This document shows positions 22,093-29,653 of a stretch of DNA of 64,000 bases, in pieces. Below the pieces are notes generated by a model that worked only from the letters and a program-made list of their open reading frames with translations, had not been told where the DNA came from and did not search any database. The first letter of the stretch is position 1; every line of letters starts with the position of its first letter. Both the position numbers and the translations under genes were made by a program. Source of the stretch: Cellulomonas fengjieae (GTDB lineage Bacteria; Actinomycetota; Actinomycetes; Actinomycetales; Cellulomonadaceae); assembly GCF_018388465.1 (NCBI RefSeq), contig NZ_CP074404.1:3596001-3660000 (forward strand). The letters are read 5' to 3'.

Positions 22093-22164
22093 CGCGAGAT
22101 CGTGGGTTCGGCACCAGATCGTGCGTGCGCACCCACGAGTGTGCGCCGAACCCACGATCTCGCG
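22093..22164. repeat. intergenic palindrome, family B, copy 1
   Basis: Perfect 19-base outer arms (GCGAGATCGTGGGTTCGGC at 22094-22112 and its complement at 22145-22163), extended to 20 by flanking C/G, enclose about 32 bases with inner partial symmetry around AGATCGTGCGTGCGCAC. Two further copies lie at 28466 and 29587. It fills the space between the methyltransferase and the DUF2071 gene. Confidence 0.88.
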
Positions 22165-24107: not shown

Positions 24108-24848
24108 TCAGTCCCCGGGCGTCGGCGTGGGATCTCCGGCGAGGATCAGGTAGAGGTCGCGGCGCGCACGGTCGATGACCTCGAGCGCCTTCGTCGCCTG
24201 CTCGTCCGTGCCGGTGCGGGCGACCTGGTGAGCCGCCGCGCCGAGGGCCTCCACGGCTCCGCGCAGGGCGCGTCCCGGCGAGGTCGGCCGGCTCGCGGCG
24301 TCCTCCCACGGGCTGCCCAGCTGCTCGGCGTGCTCGGTGACGTAGGTGCCACCGGCCTCGGTCAGCGTGGCCATCTTGCGGCCGGACTCGGCGGTGATGG
24401 TCACCAGGCCCTCGTCCTCGAGCAGGTTGAGCGCGGGGTAGATGGCCCCGGGGCTCGGCCGCCACGTGCCGCCCGACCGCTCGCTGATCTGCTGGATCAG
24501 CTGGTAGCCGTGCATCGGCTCCTCGGCAAGCAGCAGGAGGATCGCCGCACGGATGTCACCGCGACCGGCGCGGCGGCCGGGACCGCGACCGCGGCCACCC
24601 GGACCGAAGCCCGGACCGAAACCCGGTCCCCCGAAGCCACGCGGACCGCCAGGGCCGAAGCCGCGGTGCCCGCCGTGCCCGTGGTGCTCGCCGTGCTCGT
24701 GGGGCTCGTGCGGGAAGACGCCGCGGGGGCCGCCGCGTCGGGGGTCGAAGCCCTCCTCGTAGGGGGCTTCGGGGAAGTCGCCGCGTCGGCGACGGTTGCG
24801 GCCGCGGGCGGCCGGGTCGGTGCTGTCGGATGCAAACGGGTGTCGCAT
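24108..24848 (-). CDS. PadR family regulator with His/Gly-rich N-terminal extension
   Basis: 246 aa. The PadR winged helix starts near residue 95: GDIRAAILLLLAEEPMHGYQLIQQISERSGGTWRPSPGAIYPALNLLEDEGLVTI, with a helical dimerisation tail (TDEQATKALEVIDRARRDLYLIL). The first 90 residues are unusual: a charged start, then HEPHEHGEHHGHGGHRG and a run of GFGPGG-type repeats. The His cluster could bind a metal, so a metal-sensing PadR is possible; similar extensions occur in other actinobacterial PadR proteins. Probably autoregulated through the tandem CGATNNATCG sites at 24935. Confidence 0.87.
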   Translation of the reverse strand: MRHPFASDSTDPAARGRNRRRRGDFPEAPYEEGFDPRRGGPRGVFPHEPHEHGEHHGHGGHRGFGPGGPRGFGGPGFGPGFGPGGRGRGPGRRAGRGDIRAAILLLLAEEPMHGYQLIQQISERSGGTWRPSPGAIYPALNLLEDEGLVTITAESGRKMATLTEAGGTYVTEHAEQLGSPWEDAASRPTSPGRALRGAVEALGAAAHQVARTGTDEQATKALEVIDRARRDLYLILAGDPTPTPGD

Positions 24849-24977: not shown

Positions 24978-25376
24978 CTAGGCGCCGACCGTCTGCGCGA
25001 TCTGGATCAGGTTGCCGCACGTGTCGTCGAGGGTCGCGACGACCACCGGCCCCAGGTCCACCGGCTCCTGCACGAACCGCACGCCCAGCGCGGTCAGCCG
25101 TTCGAACTCGGCCCGGACGTCGTCGACGCCGAACGAGGTGGCCGGGATCCCGTCCTCGACGAGCGCCGCCTTGAACGGGCCGACCGCTGGGTGGCTGCTG
25201 GGCTCCAGCAGGAGCTCGACGCCGTCGGGGGCAGCCGGGGAGACGACGGTCAGCCAGCGGTCCTCGCCGCCCAGCGGGACGTCGTTCTTCACGACGAACC
25301 CCAGCACGCCCGTGTAGAAGTCGAGCGCCTTGCTCTGGTCGTCGACGAACACGCTGGTCACGGTGATCCGGATCAT
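24978..25376 (-). CDS. VOC (glyoxalase/bleomycin resistance) family protein
   Basis: 132 aa with two paired beta-alpha-beta-beta-beta units: VTSVFVDDQSKALDFYTGVLGFVVKNDVPLGG and the second half GVDDVRAEFERLTALGVRFVQEPVDLGPVVVATLDDTCGNLIQIAQ. The variable metal ligands make the reaction unpredictable; relatives include fosfomycin and bleomycin resistance proteins and dioxygenases. Its ATG overlaps the stop of the ArsR-type gene at 25373, so it is controlled by that regulator's promoter. Confidence 0.87.
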   Translation of the reverse strand: MIRITVTSVFVDDQSKALDFYTGVLGFVVKNDVPLGGEDRWLTVVSPAAPDGVELLLEPSSHPAVGPFKAALVEDGIPATSFGVDDVRAEFERLTALGVRFVQEPVDLGPVVVATLDDTCGNLIQIAQTVGA

Positions 25377-25663
25377 GAGCTCTCTCCTTCGTCGGGAACC
25401 GGCCAGCGCTCGGCGATCTGCCGCAGCGGCGCGGTGTCGAGGTGGTGGAACTTGTAGCGGCCCTCACGGCGGACAGTGACGAGCCCGGCGTCTTCGAGGA
25501 CCTCGAGGTGCTGCGAGACGGCCTGCCGGGTGGAGCCCAGCCCGTGCCGCATGGTCAACCGGGTGCACAGCTCGAACAGCGACTGCCCGTCGCGCTCCTG
25601 CAGCTCGTCGAGGATCGCCCGCCGAGTGGCGTCGGCGAGGGCCTTGAAGACGTCGGCGGGCAC
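25373..25663 (-). CDS. ArsR-family winged-helix regulator (no metal cysteines)
   Basis: 96 aa: VFKALADATRRAILDELQERDGQSLFELCTRLTMRHGLGSTRQAVSQHLEVLEDAGLVTVRREGRYKFHHLDTAPLRQI. It belongs to the group usually linked with AHSA1 or VOC genes and lacks the CxC metal motif of the arsenic repressors in this window. It is followed by the VOC gene (ATGA overlap). The ATG at 25663 lies about where transcription should start from the consensus promoter upstream, so its message is probably leaderless. Confidence 0.9.
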   Translation of the reverse strand: MPADVFKALADATRRAILDELQERDGQSLFELCTRLTMRHGLGSTRQAVSQHLEVLEDAGLVTVRREGRYKFHHLDTAPLRQIAERWPVPDEGESS

Positions 25664-25669
25664 CTCGTC

Positions 25670-25699
25670 TTTATAGGCAAGTCATTACTTGCCTGTCAA
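25670..25699 (-). promoter_or_regulatory. arsR-VOC promoter with operator in the spacer
   Basis: On the minus strand TTGACA (25694-25699) and TATAAA (25670-25675) are separated by 18 bases. The spacer region is a perfect inverted repeat, AGGCAAGT-CATT-ACTTGCCT (25675-25694). A repressor bound there would exclude polymerase. The predicted transcription start coincides with the ATG at 25663. Confidence 0.8.
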
Positions 25700-25703
25700 G
25701 GGG

Positions 25704-25732
25704 TGTCGATTTCTGGGCGCCTCGCGCGTCAT
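25704..25732 (+). promoter_or_regulatory. ECF42-type promoter P1 (YCII operon)
   Basis: TGTCGA (25704-25709), 17 bases, then CGTCAT (25727-25732). The -35 TGTCGA and a CGTC/CGAC-like -10 are what I recall for ECF42 sigma factors, and the identical pair with the same spacing recurs at 26481. It stands 37 bases before the first YCII gene and 5 bases from the -35 box of the divergent arsR-VOC promoter. Confidence 0.78.
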
Positions 25733-25768
25733 GATCTCGACAGCACACCGAAGACACGGGAGGACGTC

Positions 25769-26131
25769 ATGGCGGACAAGTGGATGGTTCTGCTCTGGGG
25801 CGACGAGGGGTTCTGGGAGAACGCGACCCCCGAGGTCCGCGACCGCATCATGGACGAGCACCGGGCGTACTCGCAGGCCTGCGAGGAGAAGGGCTACAAG
25901 ATCGTCGGCGGGGACGAGCTGGGCTTCTCCAAGAACGCCGTCACGGTCCGGGCCGACGGCGGGACGCTGACCGTCACGGACGGACCGTACGTCGAGCTGG
26001 CCGAGCACCTGGGCGGCTACTACGTCATCGAGACCGACGACGTGCAGGGCCTGGCCCGGCTGACCGGCGAGCTGCTGCTCACCGACGGCGGCGGTGCGGA
26101 GCTGCGTCCGGTGATCGTGTACGAGGCATGA
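25769..26131 (+). CDS. YCII-related (DGPF) protein 1
   Basis: 120 aa dimeric alpha-beta barrel protein of the YCII/DGPF family: KWMVLLWGDEGFWENATPEVRDRIMDEHRAYSQACEEKGYKIVGGDELG, then TVTDGPYVELAEHLGGYYVIETDDVQGLARL. TDGPY is the DGPF motif. These proteins are the standard partners of ECF42 sigma factors; their biochemical role is unknown. GGGAGGA precedes the ATG. The next YCII gene overlaps its stop. Confidence 0.92.
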   Translation: MADKWMVLLWGDEGFWENATPEVRDRIMDEHRAYSQACEEKGYKIVGGDELGFSKNAVTVRADGGTLTVTDGPYVELAEHLGGYYVIETDDVQGLARLTGELLLTDGGGAELRPVIVYEA

Positions 26132-26478
26132 GCGTGCAGACCTACCTCGTGCTGATCTACGCCGACGAGGGCGACTGGGACGCGGCCGACGAGGCGACGA
26201 AGGCCGAGTACTACCGCCAGCACGGCGACTACGACGACCAGGCCGCCGACTACGGCGTGACGTTCCTGGCCGGCGAGGCCCTGCAGCCGGTGGCCACCGC
26301 CGTCACCCTGCGGCGCTCCGGGCAGGACGCGACGATCACCGACGGCCCCTTCGCCGAGACCGCCGAACAGCTGGGCGGCTTCTACCTGGTCACCGCGCCG
26401 AGCCGGGAGGCCGTCCTGAAGCACGCCATGCTGCTGCCCGAGTACACGATCGAGGTCCGCGAGATCCTGCCCATGTGA
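26128..26478 (+). CDS. YCII-related (DGPF) protein 2
   Basis: 116 aa, same family: TYLVLIYADEGDWDAADEATKAEYYRQHGDYDDQAADYGVTFLAGEALQPVATAVTLRR, then TITDGPFAETAEQLGGFYLVTAPSREAVLKHAMLLPEY and EVREI at the end, the canonical DGPF layout. Overlaps protein 1 (ATGA) and ends just before the second ECF42-type promoter. Confidence 0.93.
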   Translation: MSVQTYLVLIYADEGDWDAADEATKAEYYRQHGDYDDQAADYGVTFLAGEALQPVATAVTLRRSGQDATITDGPFAETAEQLGGFYLVTAPSREAVLKHAMLLPEYTIEVREILPM

Positions 26479-26480
26479 TC

Positions 26481-26509
26481 TGTCGATCCGCCTGCTCGCC
26501 GCGCGTCAT
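26481..26509 (+). promoter_or_regulatory. ECF42-type promoter P2 (YCII3-sigma operon)
   Basis: TGTCGA (26481-26486), 17 bases, then CGTCAT (26504-26509), the same boxes and spacing as P1. It begins three bases after the YCII-2 stop and drives the segment that includes the sigma factor gene, which would make the sigma factor autoregulatory. Confidence 0.78.
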
Positions 26510-26557
26510 CGGGGCAGCAGGGCGCAGCCGGCGCCCGCCGATCCTCCAGGAGCTGAC

Positions 26558-26956
26558 ATGTCCGAGTTCACTGTCGTTCTCTACCGCGACGACGCGCGCG
26601 ACGCCGCCCTGACGCAGGAGGAGCGCGAACGGGCGTGGGCCGCGCACAGCGGGTTCCAGCAGCGCTGCGCCGACGAGGGGTGGGAGATCGTCACGACCAG
26701 GGCCCTCGGGGCGGCCGCGCGAGCACGGTCGCTGCGGTCCGACGGGCGCGCCGGGATCATCGTCTCCGACGGTCCCTACGCCGAGACCGCCGAGCAGGTG
26801 GCCGGGTTCTACCTGGTCGCCCGCACGAAGCTCGACGCATTGACCGAGGCGGTCAGCGTCCTGGTGCTCAACGGCGAGTCCGTCGAGATCAGGCCCACCG
26901 TGCGGTTCGTCGACGGCGTCCCGGTGGACGGCGACGACGCCCTGACGGCGTCGTGA
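26558..26956 (+). CDS. YCII-related (DGPF) protein 3
   Basis: 132 aa: EFTVVLYRDDARDAALTQEERERAWAAHSGFQQRCADEGWEIVTTRALGAAARARSLRSDG, IIVSDGPYAETAEQVAGFYLVARTKLDALTEAV and VEIRPTVRF. SDGPY is the DGPF motif; the longer acidic tail (VDGVPVDGDDALTAS) is extra. It is the first gene after P2 and its stop overlaps the next start (GTGA). Confidence 0.9.
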   Translation: MSEFTVVLYRDDARDAALTQEERERAWAAHSGFQQRCADEGWEIVTTRALGAAARARSLRSDGRAGIIVSDGPYAETAEQVAGFYLVARTKLDALTEAVSVLVLNGESVEIRPTVRFVDGVPVDGDDALTAS

Positions 26957-27183
26957 AGTTCGTCGTCCTCGCGTTCGGGTCGGCCACGGTGCCCGCCGGT
27001 GGCCTCACACTGGGGTCCGTGGACACAGCGACGTCGGTCCTGGACCGCGGCCTGCGGGACGGCACGTTCGACGGGCCGGCCTCGGCGCTGACCGGCGTCC
27101 TCGTGCTCGAGGCGTCCGACCTCGACGCGGTCCTGGACACCCTGCCCCCGACCGGCACCTACGAGGTGCGACCCGCTTGGTGA
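26953..27183 (+). CDS. short YCII-like protein without a full DGPF motif
   Basis: 76 aa, starting at GTG that overlaps the YCII-3 stop and ending across the sigma factor start. KFVVLAFGSATVPAGGLTLGS resembles a first YCII strand, FDGPASALTGVLVLEASDLDAVLDTLPPTGTYEVRPAW resembles the second half, and the central helix and the T/SDGPF motif are missing. It is most likely a contracted YCII domain kept for its place in the operon or as a partner of the sigma factor; it could also be a gene remnant. Confidence 0.7.
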   Translation: MKFVVLAFGSATVPAGGLTLGSVDTATSVLDRGLRDGTFDGPASALTGVLVLEASDLDAVLDTLPPTGTYEVRPAW

Positions 27184-28427
27184 CCACCGAGGACGCCCTC
27201 GACGACGCCTGGCGGAGCCACTGGTCCCGCCTGATCGGGCTGCTCATCGGCCAGTTCGGGCGGCCGGACCTGGCGGAGGACGCCGTCTCCGACGCCTTCG
27301 AGTCGGCCGCCCGGCACTGGCCCGACGACGGCGTGCCGACGAACACCGGCGCCTGGCTGCTCACGGCCGCACGCCGCCGCATCCTCGACCGGCTCCGCTC
27401 GGAGGCGGTCGCCCGCCGTAAGGAGCCGTTGATGGTGGTGGACGACGAGATGCGCGCCGCCGCCGCGGCTGCCGAGGACCCGGGTGCCCACGTCGCCGAC
27501 GACCAGCTGCGGCTGATCTTCGCCTGCTGCCACCCCGCGATCGCCCCCGACGACCGCGTCGCCCTCACGCTGCGGTTCGTCGTCGGCCTGACGACCACCG
27601 AGATCGGTCGGCTCCTGCTCGTCCAGGAGTCGACGATGGCCGCGCGGCTGACTCGCGCGAAGAAGCGGCTGGCGTCGTCGGGCATCCCGTTCGCGACACC
27701 CGCGGCTTCCCGGTTGGACGAGCGCCTGGACGTCGTCGCGACCGTCGTCTACCTCGCGTTCACGTCCGGCTACCACCCCGGGGACGGGGCCGTGCCGCTG
27801 CGCGTGGACCTCGGCGACGAGGCGATCCGGCTCCTGCGGGTCCTCGACTCCCTGCTGCCCGGACGCGCCGTCGTCCGCTCCCTGCTCGCCCTCCTCCTGC
27901 TGCAGCACTCGCGTCGCGACAGCCGCCTCGACGCCGCCGGCGAGCTGATCCTGCTGCCCGACCAGGACCGCTCCCGGTGGCGCCGCGACGAGATCGCCGA
28001 GGGCGTGGCGCTGCTGTCCTCGCTGCCGTCGGCCCCCGGTCCGCACGGGCGGTTGGCTGCCGAGTACCGCCTGCAGGCGCTCATCGCCGCCGAGCACGCC
28101 ACGGCACCCACCTCGGCGGACACCCGCTGGTCCGTCATCGCCGACCTCTACGCCCGGCTCGAGGCGCTGACCGGCTCGCCGGTGGTCCGGTTGGCCCGCG
28201 CGGTCGCGGTGGCGGAGGCATCCGGCCCGGAGGACGGCCTCCGGCTCCTCGAGGGCCTCGACGACGCGCTCCCGAGGCACCACCGGGTCCCCGCGGTCCG
28301 CGCCGAGCTGCTGGCCCGCGCCGGCCACGCGAGCGCAGCCGCCGACGCCTACCGCGCAGCCCTGGCCCTGGTCACCAACCCCACAGAACGCGCCCACCTC
28401 CAGTCCCGCCTGACCGCCCTGGCCTGA
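27180..28427 (+). CDS. ECF42-group sigma factor with C-terminal extension
   Basis: 415 aa, about twice a normal ECF sigma factor. Region 2: DAWRSHWSRLIGLLIGQFGRPDLAEDAVSDAFESAARHWPDDGVPTNTGAWLLTAARRRILDRLRSE. Region 4: LRLIFACCHPAIAPDDRVALTLRFVVGLTTTEIGRLLLVQESTMAARLTRAKKRL. The DUF6596 extension follows (RLDVVATVVYLAFTSGYHPGDG, then a helical TPR-like tail rich in LLLLQHSRRDSRLDAAGELILL). This extension and DGPF neighbours define ECF42. No anti-sigma gene is near; control through the extension is the family expectation. GTG 27180 overlaps the preceding stop. Confidence 0.93.
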   Translation: MTTEDALDDAWRSHWSRLIGLLIGQFGRPDLAEDAVSDAFESAARHWPDDGVPTNTGAWLLTAARRRILDRLRSEAVARRKEPLMVVDDEMRAAAAAAEDPGAHVADDQLRLIFACCHPAIAPDDRVALTLRFVVGLTTTEIGRLLLVQESTMAARLTRAKKRLASSGIPFATPAASRLDERLDVVATVVYLAFTSGYHPGDGAVPLRVDLGDEAIRLLRVLDSLLPGRAVVRSLLALLLLQHSRRDSRLDAAGELILLPDQDRSRWRRDEIAEGVALLSSLPSAPGPHGRLAAEYRLQALIAAEHATAPTSADTRWSVIADLYARLEALTGSPVVRLARAVAVAEASGPEDGLRLLEGLDDALPRHHRVPAVRAELLARAGHASAAADAYRAALALVTNPTERAHLQSRLTALA

Positions 28428-28465
28428 CCGGCCCGGCCGCCGCCGGCTCAGTCCGGCTCACGCCA

Positions 28466-28533
28466 CGAGATCGTGGGTTCGGCGCGACATCGTGGGTGCG
28501 AACGGACGATCTCGTGCCGAAGCCACGATCTCG
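28466..28533. repeat. intergenic palindrome, family B, copy 2
   Basis: Outer arms 28466-28483 and 28516-28533 (left arm CGAGATCGTGGGTTCGGC) match at 17 of 18. The inside carries CGACATCGTGGGTGCG facing CGGACGATCTCGTG, a second nested symmetry. It lies between the sigma factor gene and the nuclease gene. Confidence 0.88.
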
Positions 28534-28625
28534 CCCAGCCGCCCACCGCCCCGTCCGCGCGCGTGCCGTCCACCGGGGATGCCGGGAGTGCACCGGGGCC
28601 GGTCGGCGGCGGCGACGATCGGGCC

Positions 28626-29561
28626 GTGCCTCATCGACCCGGATCCACGCAGCCCGCCCCGCCGACCGCTCCCACAGTGCACCTGGCGCGGGACGTCCCG
28701 CGCCAGGTCGTGGCGGAGCGCGTGGCGGCGCAGCAGTGGCGGCGAGTTGGCCGGGGCGTCTACGTCCCGACGGGCGGCGCGACGGACAAGCGGTCCGACG
28801 CCCTCGCACGGATCGTCGGCCTCCACGCCCGGTTGACCGCGGAGACGTGCTTCAGCCACACCTCCGCGGCCGTCCTGCTCGGGCTGCCGCTGTGGGAGAC
28901 CGGTGCCGTGACGCACATCTTCCAGCGCTCGTCGGCAAGTCAGGACCGCTCCCCCGAGATCGCCAGGCACACCCCGTTCCCGCCACCCGACGACATGACC
29001 GTGATCGCGGGCATCCCGGCCACGACGCTGGGACGCACCGCGTGGGACTGCGCCAGCCTCCTGCGACCGCTGGGCGGACTGGTGGTGGTCGACGCCGCGC
29101 TTCGGGCAGGTGCTGACCCCGCAGAGCTCGCGGCACGTGCGGACGCGACCGTCGGCAGGCGCGGGTCCGGTCGAGCGCGCGCCGTCCTGCAGTTCGCCGA
29201 CGGCGGCTCGGAGTCCGCCTGGGAGACTGCGTGCCGGTTCACGCTCCTGCGCGCGGGGCTGCCGGTCCCGCAGACGCAGATCCCGGTGGCCACACGGCTC
29301 GGCACGTTCTGGGCAGACCTCGGCTGGGCGCAGTGGCGCGTGCTCCTCGAGTACGACGGCCGCACCAAGTACGCCGGGCGGGAGGCGGAGGCGTTCCTGC
29401 AGGAGAAGCGGCGGCACGATGCGATCGTGGAGGCGGACTGGCGGATCATCCACGTCACCCGCGACGACCTCCGGAACACGGCCGCGCTGATCGCACGGGT
29501 GGCCGGCCTGCTGCCGCAGGCAGTCACTTCAGGCCTCCGACCCCGCCGAGAGCTGTACTGA
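28626..29561 (+). CDS. AbiEi-like N-terminus fused to a DUF559/Vsr-like nuclease domain
   Basis: 311 aa. Residues about 15-60 (VHLARDVPRQVVAERVAAQQWRRVGRGVYVPTG) resemble the winged-helix start of AbiEi antitoxins. The middle (TCFSHTSAAVLLGLPLW, MTVIAGIPATTLGRTAWDCA) is the matching AbiEi core. The C-terminal end (FWADLGWAQWRVLLEYDGRTKYAG, EKRRHDAIVEADWRIIHVTRDDL) is the PD-(D/E)XK fold of Vsr/DUF559, with Asp and Glu of the active site in LEYDG and the preceding ADLGW. Such proteins are common in actinobacteria and uncharacterised. I start at GTG 28626; the open frame upstream is palindrome sequence. It is bracketed by family-B palindromes. Confidence 0.83.
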   Translation: MPHRPGSTQPAPPTAPTVHLARDVPRQVVAERVAAQQWRRVGRGVYVPTGGATDKRSDALARIVGLHARLTAETCFSHTSAAVLLGLPLWETGAVTHIFQRSSASQDRSPEIARHTPFPPPDDMTVIAGIPATTLGRTAWDCASLLRPLGGLVVVDAALRAGADPAELAARADATVGRRGSGRARAVLQFADGGSESAWETACRFTLLRAGLPVPQTQIPVATRLGTFWADLGWAQWRVLLEYDGRTKYAGREAEAFLQEKRRHDAIVEADWRIIHVTRDDLRNTAALIARVAGLLPQAVTSGLRPRRELY

Positions 29562-29586: not shown

Positions 29587-29653
29587 CGAGATCGTGGCAT
29601 CGGCCCGAGATCGTGGGTGTGAAGCCCCGATCTCGTGCCGAACCCACGATCTC
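29587..29653. repeat. intergenic palindrome, family B, copy 3
   Basis: Left arm from 29587 (CGAGATCGTGGCATCGGC) and right arm 29637-29653 match at 15 of 17, with inner CGAGATCGTGGGTGTG facing CCCCGATCTCG. It follows the nuclease stop by 26 bases. Copies 2 and 3 flank that gene. Confidence 0.86.

Follow-up and report, generated by a model that had tools for sequence, protein, structure and literature searches.

Two matching promoter boxes and a predicted ECF42 sigma factor circuit of mostly YCII genes in Cellulomonas fengjieae

A 64,000-nucleotide stretch of the Cellulomonas fengjieae genome (contig NZ_CP074404.1, forward-strand positions 3,596,001 to 3,660,000; hereafter the window, numbered from its first letter; host genome 3.99 Mb) carries a sigma factor gene of extracytoplasmic function (ECF) group 42, YCII genes, and two promoter boxes with identical hexamers. 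Judging from sequence comparisons, this sigma factor very probably reads TGTCGA-N17-(cgcg)CGTCAT at both boxes and at two remote YCII genes, which would make these sites one circuit. RNA polymerase carrying the factor would transcribe two YCII proteins from box 1; from box 2, a further YCII protein along with a shortened YCII relative and the sigma gene; and, elsewhere, remote YCII genes at genome positions 1144592 (minus strand) and 3530745. Positive feedback would run through box 2 and through read-through from box 1. In place of an anti-sigma factor, other proteins that touch the helical C-terminal extension may control activity, and YCII proteins would be the likeliest of these. The promoter class, its apparent ownership by this paralog and not by any of the five further ECF42 factors in the genome, and the predicted, mostly YCII output are supported by the comparisons below, and positive autoregulation of the sigma gene is likely from its arrangement. 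ECF42-YCII circuits are already known, and this locus is a well-supported further example.

All elements of the locus lie on the plus strand. Box 1 occupies 25704-25732 (-35 TGTCGA at 25704-25709, a 17-base spacer, -10 CGTCAT at 25727-25732) and box 2 occupies 26481-26509 (-35 TGTCGA at 26481-26486, a 17-base spacer, -10 CGTCAT at 26504-26509); the hexamers and spacing are identical and the spacer sequences differ. Box 1 stands upstream of two overlapping YCII genes encoding protein 1 (120 aa, 25769..26131, PF03795 at 40.1 bits) and protein 2 (116 aa, 26128..26478, 49.4 bits), which share an ATGA overlap. Box 2 ends 48 bases before a gene run comprising YCII protein 3 (132 aa, 26558..26956, 26.9 bits), a shortened YCII relative of 76 aa with a GTG start (26953..27183), and the sigma factor of 415 aa, also with a GTG start (27180..28427), with GTGA overlaps on both sides of the 76-aa gene. 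The initial annotation had given these positions for the two boxes, each in front of YCII genes, and had placed the second at the head of a GTGA-joined run ending in the sigma gene; the box positions are exact, and the gene coordinates and overlaps bear out the run. In the full form TGTCGA-N17-CGTCAT the pair goes far past chance, with 0.01 expected in the window and two copies reached in 0 of 100 shuffles. The shorter form, TGTCGA-N17-CGTC, also matches twice, and was rejected as stand-alone proof because at least two matches arose in 14 of 100 shuffled windows. A further match, TGTCGC-N17-CGTCAT near 24841, at the start of a PadR gene on the opposite strand, was rejected as chance.

By its domain content and surroundings, the sigma factor is a member of the ECF42 group, with regions 2 and 4, DUF6596, YCII neighbors, and a fixed-spacing promoter. 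Sigma70_r2 (36.5 bits) and Sigma70_r4_2 (36.2 bits) both exceed the Pfam cut-off, and DUF6596 (PF20239, 100.1 bits, residues 182-280), which we take as a marker of ECF42, follows region 4, as had been proposed from the translation. Factors of this group have a C-terminal tetratricopeptide repeat extension of approximately 200 residues, needed for activity. In the window factor, the approximately 250 residues beyond region 4 are predicted to be nearly all helical, mostly at high confidence, in a model with a mean pLDDT of 87. The best Foldseek matches of this model are tetratricopeptide repeat (TPR) proteins, with a best E of 4.8e-3 and none below 0.001, so the TPR label rests on literature for the ECF42 group; no TPR family of Pfam matched. 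No anti-sigma gene was recognized among the three upstream genes scanned (ArsR, VOC, and PadR, all on the opposite strand), which agrees with the initial annotation on that side of the locus, the downstream genes lying outside the scan against the family library.

In the host genome, which has 12 YCII matches, TGTCGA-N17-CGTC has 14 exact sites, four of them directly upstream of YCII genes, namely the two window boxes, 3530745 (CGTCAC), and 1144592 (minus strand, CGTCAT). The ten remaining sites include four within likely genes (L001, L006, L007, and L011), five left unassigned by the frame filter, and one (L005) located 170 bases upstream of an unrelated 452-codon frame. Across 81 genomes of the genus, TGTCGA-N17-CGTCAT has 126 matches spread over 53 genomes; the reversed pattern is absent from all 81. 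Presence was scored for one sigma factor, that of the window, with a clear ortholog defined by at least 445 bits (next match 315) and present in 45 of the genomes; boxes more than 8 kb from the ortholog were counted as remote, which left out 44 nearer boxes in 25 genomes. Remote boxes number 71, spread over 42 of the 45 genomes with the ortholog; the 36 genomes that lack it have 11 boxes, in 10 of them (Fisher p 5e-10, kinship ignored). Other matches to the sigma protein (E up to 0.001) number 70 in these 36 genomes, with at least one in 30 of them, so the box appears to go with this factor and not with ECF42 in general. A YCII domain begins 40-140 bases from the box start (found at 53-129) in 57 of the 71 remote boxes, and the letters cgcg before CGTCAT, which lie outside the search pattern, are present in 79, 84, 75, and 63% of 57 boxes. 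The proposal that both boxes are targets of this sigma factor is thus supported by ortholog tracking, by the -10 letters, and by the genes that follow; in the genome-wide motif scan that had been suggested, the sites before YCII genes are those counted above, and among remote boxes the motif was not equally common before unrelated genes.

The remote boxes that lack a YCII gene by this measure show several patterns of their own. Five (L282, L294, L313, L320, and L331), in five other Cellulomonas genomes, precede DUF899 proteins, two of them checked with Pfam and the rest assigned by sequence likeness; the DUF899 gene of the host genome (C1:3757765) has no such box upstream. Four others (L266, L270, L310, and L332) precede proteins of 63-73 residues that have a common P-D-[AS]-P-V-V stretch, and three of these four proteins had no match in a Pfam scan; the leaders of L266 and L310 contain copies of a GACCG[GC]TACAG element. 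One box is upstream of an SDR protein, two (L309 and L315) stand by eye before WhiB and LacI-type genes and may be chance, L342 (first box) is borderline for YCII, and the gene after the last, L296, is not evident.

ECF42 promoters have the consensus TGTCGA and CG(A/T)C at fixed spacing. A survey of the family covered 61 genomes, 43 of which carry DUF6596 proteins, and 117 regions were taken together with six loci of the host genome; three low-scoring duplicate sigma rows (L094 and L128) were dropped and 123 loci kept. A YCII gene lies upstream of the sigma gene in 112 of the 123 loci, in line with the genomic tie between ECF42 and DGPF/YCII proteins on which the initial annotation had drawn. 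With the spacer counted from the hexamer, TGTCG, N17, and CG[TA]C occur in this order before the first YCII gene in 85 of the 123 operons; other spacings from N9 to N23 reach at most 17, N17 on the reverse strand gives 4, and N17 inside the sigma genes gives 0.

The letters at and around the -10 follow the sigma tree. The tree has 123 rows and the letter tests cover the 92 rows with an assigned box, some assignments looking wrong or doubtful (L101, where CGTCAG was taken and a CGCTCA site is also present; L111, with two candidates; and L071, L119, and L122, where 190-210 bases separate the box from the earliest YCII start located). The third -10 letter requires 7 changes on this tree versus 29 on average after shuffling (lowest of 100 shuffles, 24), and the four core letters require 11 versus 33. 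Spacer bases 1 and 2 (10 and 16 changes versus 34 and 39 when shuffled) and 13-17 (14, 5, 12, 10, and 18 versus 43, 29, 30, 24, and 39) are conserved within clades as well. Bases 5 and 7 are near chance (29 and 34 versus 33 and 37), and bases 9 and 11 fall somewhat below the shuffled range (37 and 35 versus 46 and 45), which indicates some inheritance. Classes can be spelled as cgcg-CGTCAT, cgtt-CGACGN, gctc-CGACCA, and cgtt-CGTTGC. In the host genome, CGTCAT is found with the window factor, and the other five ECF42 loci have CGTTGC, CGACCA, CGTATG, CGACGA, and, in one case, no box. In the 26 genomes with at least two assigned boxes, the same -10 hexamer occurs in 3 of 103 same-genome pairs, versus a shuffled mean of 9.5; 11 of 2000 shuffles were equally low, and the figure partly restates the origin of the paralogs in different clades.

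Tentatively, and with somewhat less than even confidence, ECF42 paralogs may run insulated, parallel YCII circuits spelled by the -10 and the four preceding spacer letters, with the third -10 letter largely set by residue 46 and up to five orthogonal circuit copies per actinobacterium. Residue 46, which we take to lie in the L3 loop of sigma region 2, is Q, S, A, or G in 27 of 31 CGAC factors versus 5 of 53 CGTC factors (one of the latter has a gap there), with descent ignored, and its link to the third -10 letter is a lead, uncorrected for descent. In tree contrasts made for descent, four independent pairs were available among the columns listed, with a mixed outcome, and residue 46 lies outside those columns. 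When the third -10 letter was to be assigned to a single residue, mutual information proved to be spread over many columns, and residue 46 ranks third. Covariation between ECF sigma factors and their promoters has reportedly been described by Todor and others in PNAS in 2020, and ECF subgroup motifs are said to have been compiled by Casas-Pastor and others in NAR in 2021. Clade-specific -10 spelling could insulate parallel ECF42 circuits, and these clades offer a natural set for testing how sigma region 2 reads the -10 and how paralogs avoid cross-talk.

Two further observations concern the other classes. In five Cellulomonas genomes (G062:C97:3202-3268, G064:C22:707-773, G074:C1:515943-516009, G075:C1:3969347-3969413, and G094:C373:506-572), boxes of the CGACCA class form divergent pairs, set back to back with 9 bases between them. 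In the host genome, the orphan YCII gene C1:3558691 (L019) has CGTCGG-N17-CGTTGC upstream, the -10 being that of the ECF42 factor at C1:393319-394509, which suggests that this gene is a remote target of that paralog.

The double box is variable among orthologs of the window locus. Among 23 named Cellulomonas orthologs, which overlap with the genus genomes and are not an independent set, two or three boxes were found in 12, one in 8, and none in 3; at most ortholog loci, a box of this kind stands ahead of the first YCII gene. In the 20 loci with boxes, 31 of the 36 boxes (a TGTCGC match in L191 was left out) end in CGTCAT, and the other five end in CGTCAC or CGTCGT. Orthologs from Arthrobacter (L210 and L212), Nocardioides (L213), and Nonomuraea (L215 and L216) have one box followed by two YCII genes and the sigma gene, with a further CGACAC match inside the unit in L212; in Oerskovia, L211 has a box and one YCII gene and L208 has no box. 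The ancestral unit was probably box-YCII-YCII-sigma as far as these arrangements can tell. The double box is most simply read as an elaboration that arose in Cellulomonas, in which a unit of box, YCII gene, and shortened YCII gene was inserted between the YCII pair and the sigma gene. A third box-YCII unit is present beyond the ArsR-VOC pair in four relatives (L187, L190, L191, and L201) and absent from the window.

Several findings weigh against a single circuit read by this sigma factor. The comparison of genomes with and without the ortholog ignores shared descent, and a broken-off piece of the locus may account for 3 of the 71 remote boxes (G137:C17). Fourteen of the 71 lack a YCII gene by the distance measure, and 3 of the 11 boxes in ortholog-less genomes do precede one. 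In the family survey, the searched stretch yielded no N17 box for 30 of the 123 operons, not even when CG was accepted as the -10. This over-counts boxless operons because at least L113, L174, and L177 have a box farther upstream. The 30 include the ECF42 operon of the host genome at 3588629 (L039/L025, C1:3587700-3589300), whose YCII gene lacks a TGTCG-N17 box in front of it. Three of the 23 named Cellulomonas orthologs have no box, and matches to the hexamers without flanking letters have a background, as seen in a scan for the CGACCA class, which gave many matches without the spacer ending of the clade. Binding of a YCII partner to the extension is so far a proposal in print, as given in the available text of PMC8999054, and overexpressed RpoE10 of Sinorhizobium meliloti apparently did not activate its own operon according to the accessible part of PMC6180224.

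That last observation favors a reading in which this sigma factor does drive the boxes but its own gene depends mainly on transcription that starts elsewhere, with no meaningful positive feedback, as does the failure to recover a box at several orthologs. This reading is unlikely, given the 48 bases that separate box 2 from the joined run and the Cellulomonas sp. Leaf334 locus (L188), where the sigma gene has a box 178 bases ahead of it and the YCII genes end approximately 726 bases ahead of it. No sigma-70-type promoter-like or terminator-like site was found in 25350-28700 either, though such scans miss many actinobacterial promoters, and with no terminator-like site, read-through from box 1 into the second unit would be possible. 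It is distinctly improbable that the boxes serve as general ECF42 promoters, open to several or all paralogs of the genome and not specific to this one. Most ECF42 classes do have TGTCG-N17-CG in common, most also CGTC or CGAC, and the CGTCA spelling recurs in a second, distant ECF42 clade (L153, L158, L179, L146, L183, and others); yet genomes without the ortholog, most of which have other sigma matches, hold few boxes, and paralogs of one genome rarely have the same -10 hexamer. Hardly credible is the view that the likeness of the boxes is a relic of a recent duplication of box and YCII gene and not a sign of recognition. Identity to protein 1 is 29% for protein 2 and 31% for protein 3, and extra box-YCII units do stand beside the locus in the four relatives named above, but the spacers differ between boxes 1 and 2, as they do in double-box relatives, while the hexamers and spacing are identical, and clade conservation is concentrated in the hexamers and adjoining letters and is near absent from spacer bases 5 and 7, with bases 9 and 11 between. 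The duplication reading thus appears largely contradicted by spacer divergence, and recognition of both boxes by the ECF42 factor of the window is the preferred account.

Liu, Pinto, and Mascher reportedly found in 2018 that ECF42 promoters of Streptomyces venezuelae combine a TGTCGA -35 with a CG(A/T)C -10. The Cellulomonas locus differs from that system in that its YCII set is split by two boxes and the third -10 letter is T, followed by AT, and remote sites are described here across a genus. The S. venezuelae factors Sven_0747, Sven_4377, and Sven_7131 are alike in having a long C-terminal extension and YCII genes alongside, and the review that describes them proposes a protein contact on the extension, naming the neighboring YCII protein as a candidate, with the interaction partner of most of the extension still to be identified (PMC8999054). 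RpoE10 of S. meliloti resembles the present factor in having a YCII gene directly upstream and a TGTCGG-N17-CGTCAT promoter; the RpoE10-responsive promoters given are TGTCGG-N17-CGTCAT before SMb20475 and TGTCGG-N17-CGTCCT before SMc01149. RpoE10 differs in its targets, which include glyoxalase-like proteins and others, and in that no autoactivation was observed there (PMC6180224). ECF-10 of Pseudomonas putida is placed in the ECF42 group in the available portions of both reports, the second of which likens its neighborhood to that of RpoE10 (PMC8999054; PMC6180224). ECF-10 is known for stress, antibiotic, and biofilm phenotypes. The accessible portions of PMC9205884 and PMC8103513 contain no further ECF42 promoter data, and literature searches on ECF42 with DGPF promoters, ECF sigma-DGPF, DUF899-sigma factor, YCII-DGPF, and covariation found no paper. 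A mostly YCII target set that includes the sigma gene itself would narrow the question to whether YCII proteins act on the C-terminal extension.

The YCII set had been described as having four members. Three of them, proteins 1, 2, and 3, pass the Pfam cut-off for PF03795, as claimed; the fourth, the 76-aa protein, has no Pfam or NCBIfam match at E 0.01 and counts as a shortened relative by alignment, in which it matches the other three proteins and lacks approximately 29 residues of the first half. The protein is conserved among relatives; eleven homologs from other Cellulomonas loci were aligned, and every computed pair has a dN lower than its dS. The protein was modeled with three strands and one helix of four or more residues, at a mean confidence of 77 with a weak middle, and a fold search with this model gave no significant structural match (best E 0.82).

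Two neighboring genes lie on the opposite strand. A divergent ArsR-family regulator (25373..25663, minus strand; HTH_20, HTH_5, and NF033788), not claimed as a target, stands beside a glyoxalase-type (VOC) protein (24978..25376, minus strand; PF00903, 73.3 bits). In the 18 loci searched, an ArsR gene adjoins the locus in 6 (L187, L190, L191, L196, L201, and L203) and a VOC gene in 7. Beyond these genes, the window contains a short interspersed repeat around GAGATCGTGGGT, with seven copies at no more than one mismatch, a number reached in 0 of 100 shuffles; the copies are partly arranged as inverted pairs and apparently intergenic, and include those at 22096-22161, 28467-28532, and 29607-29653.

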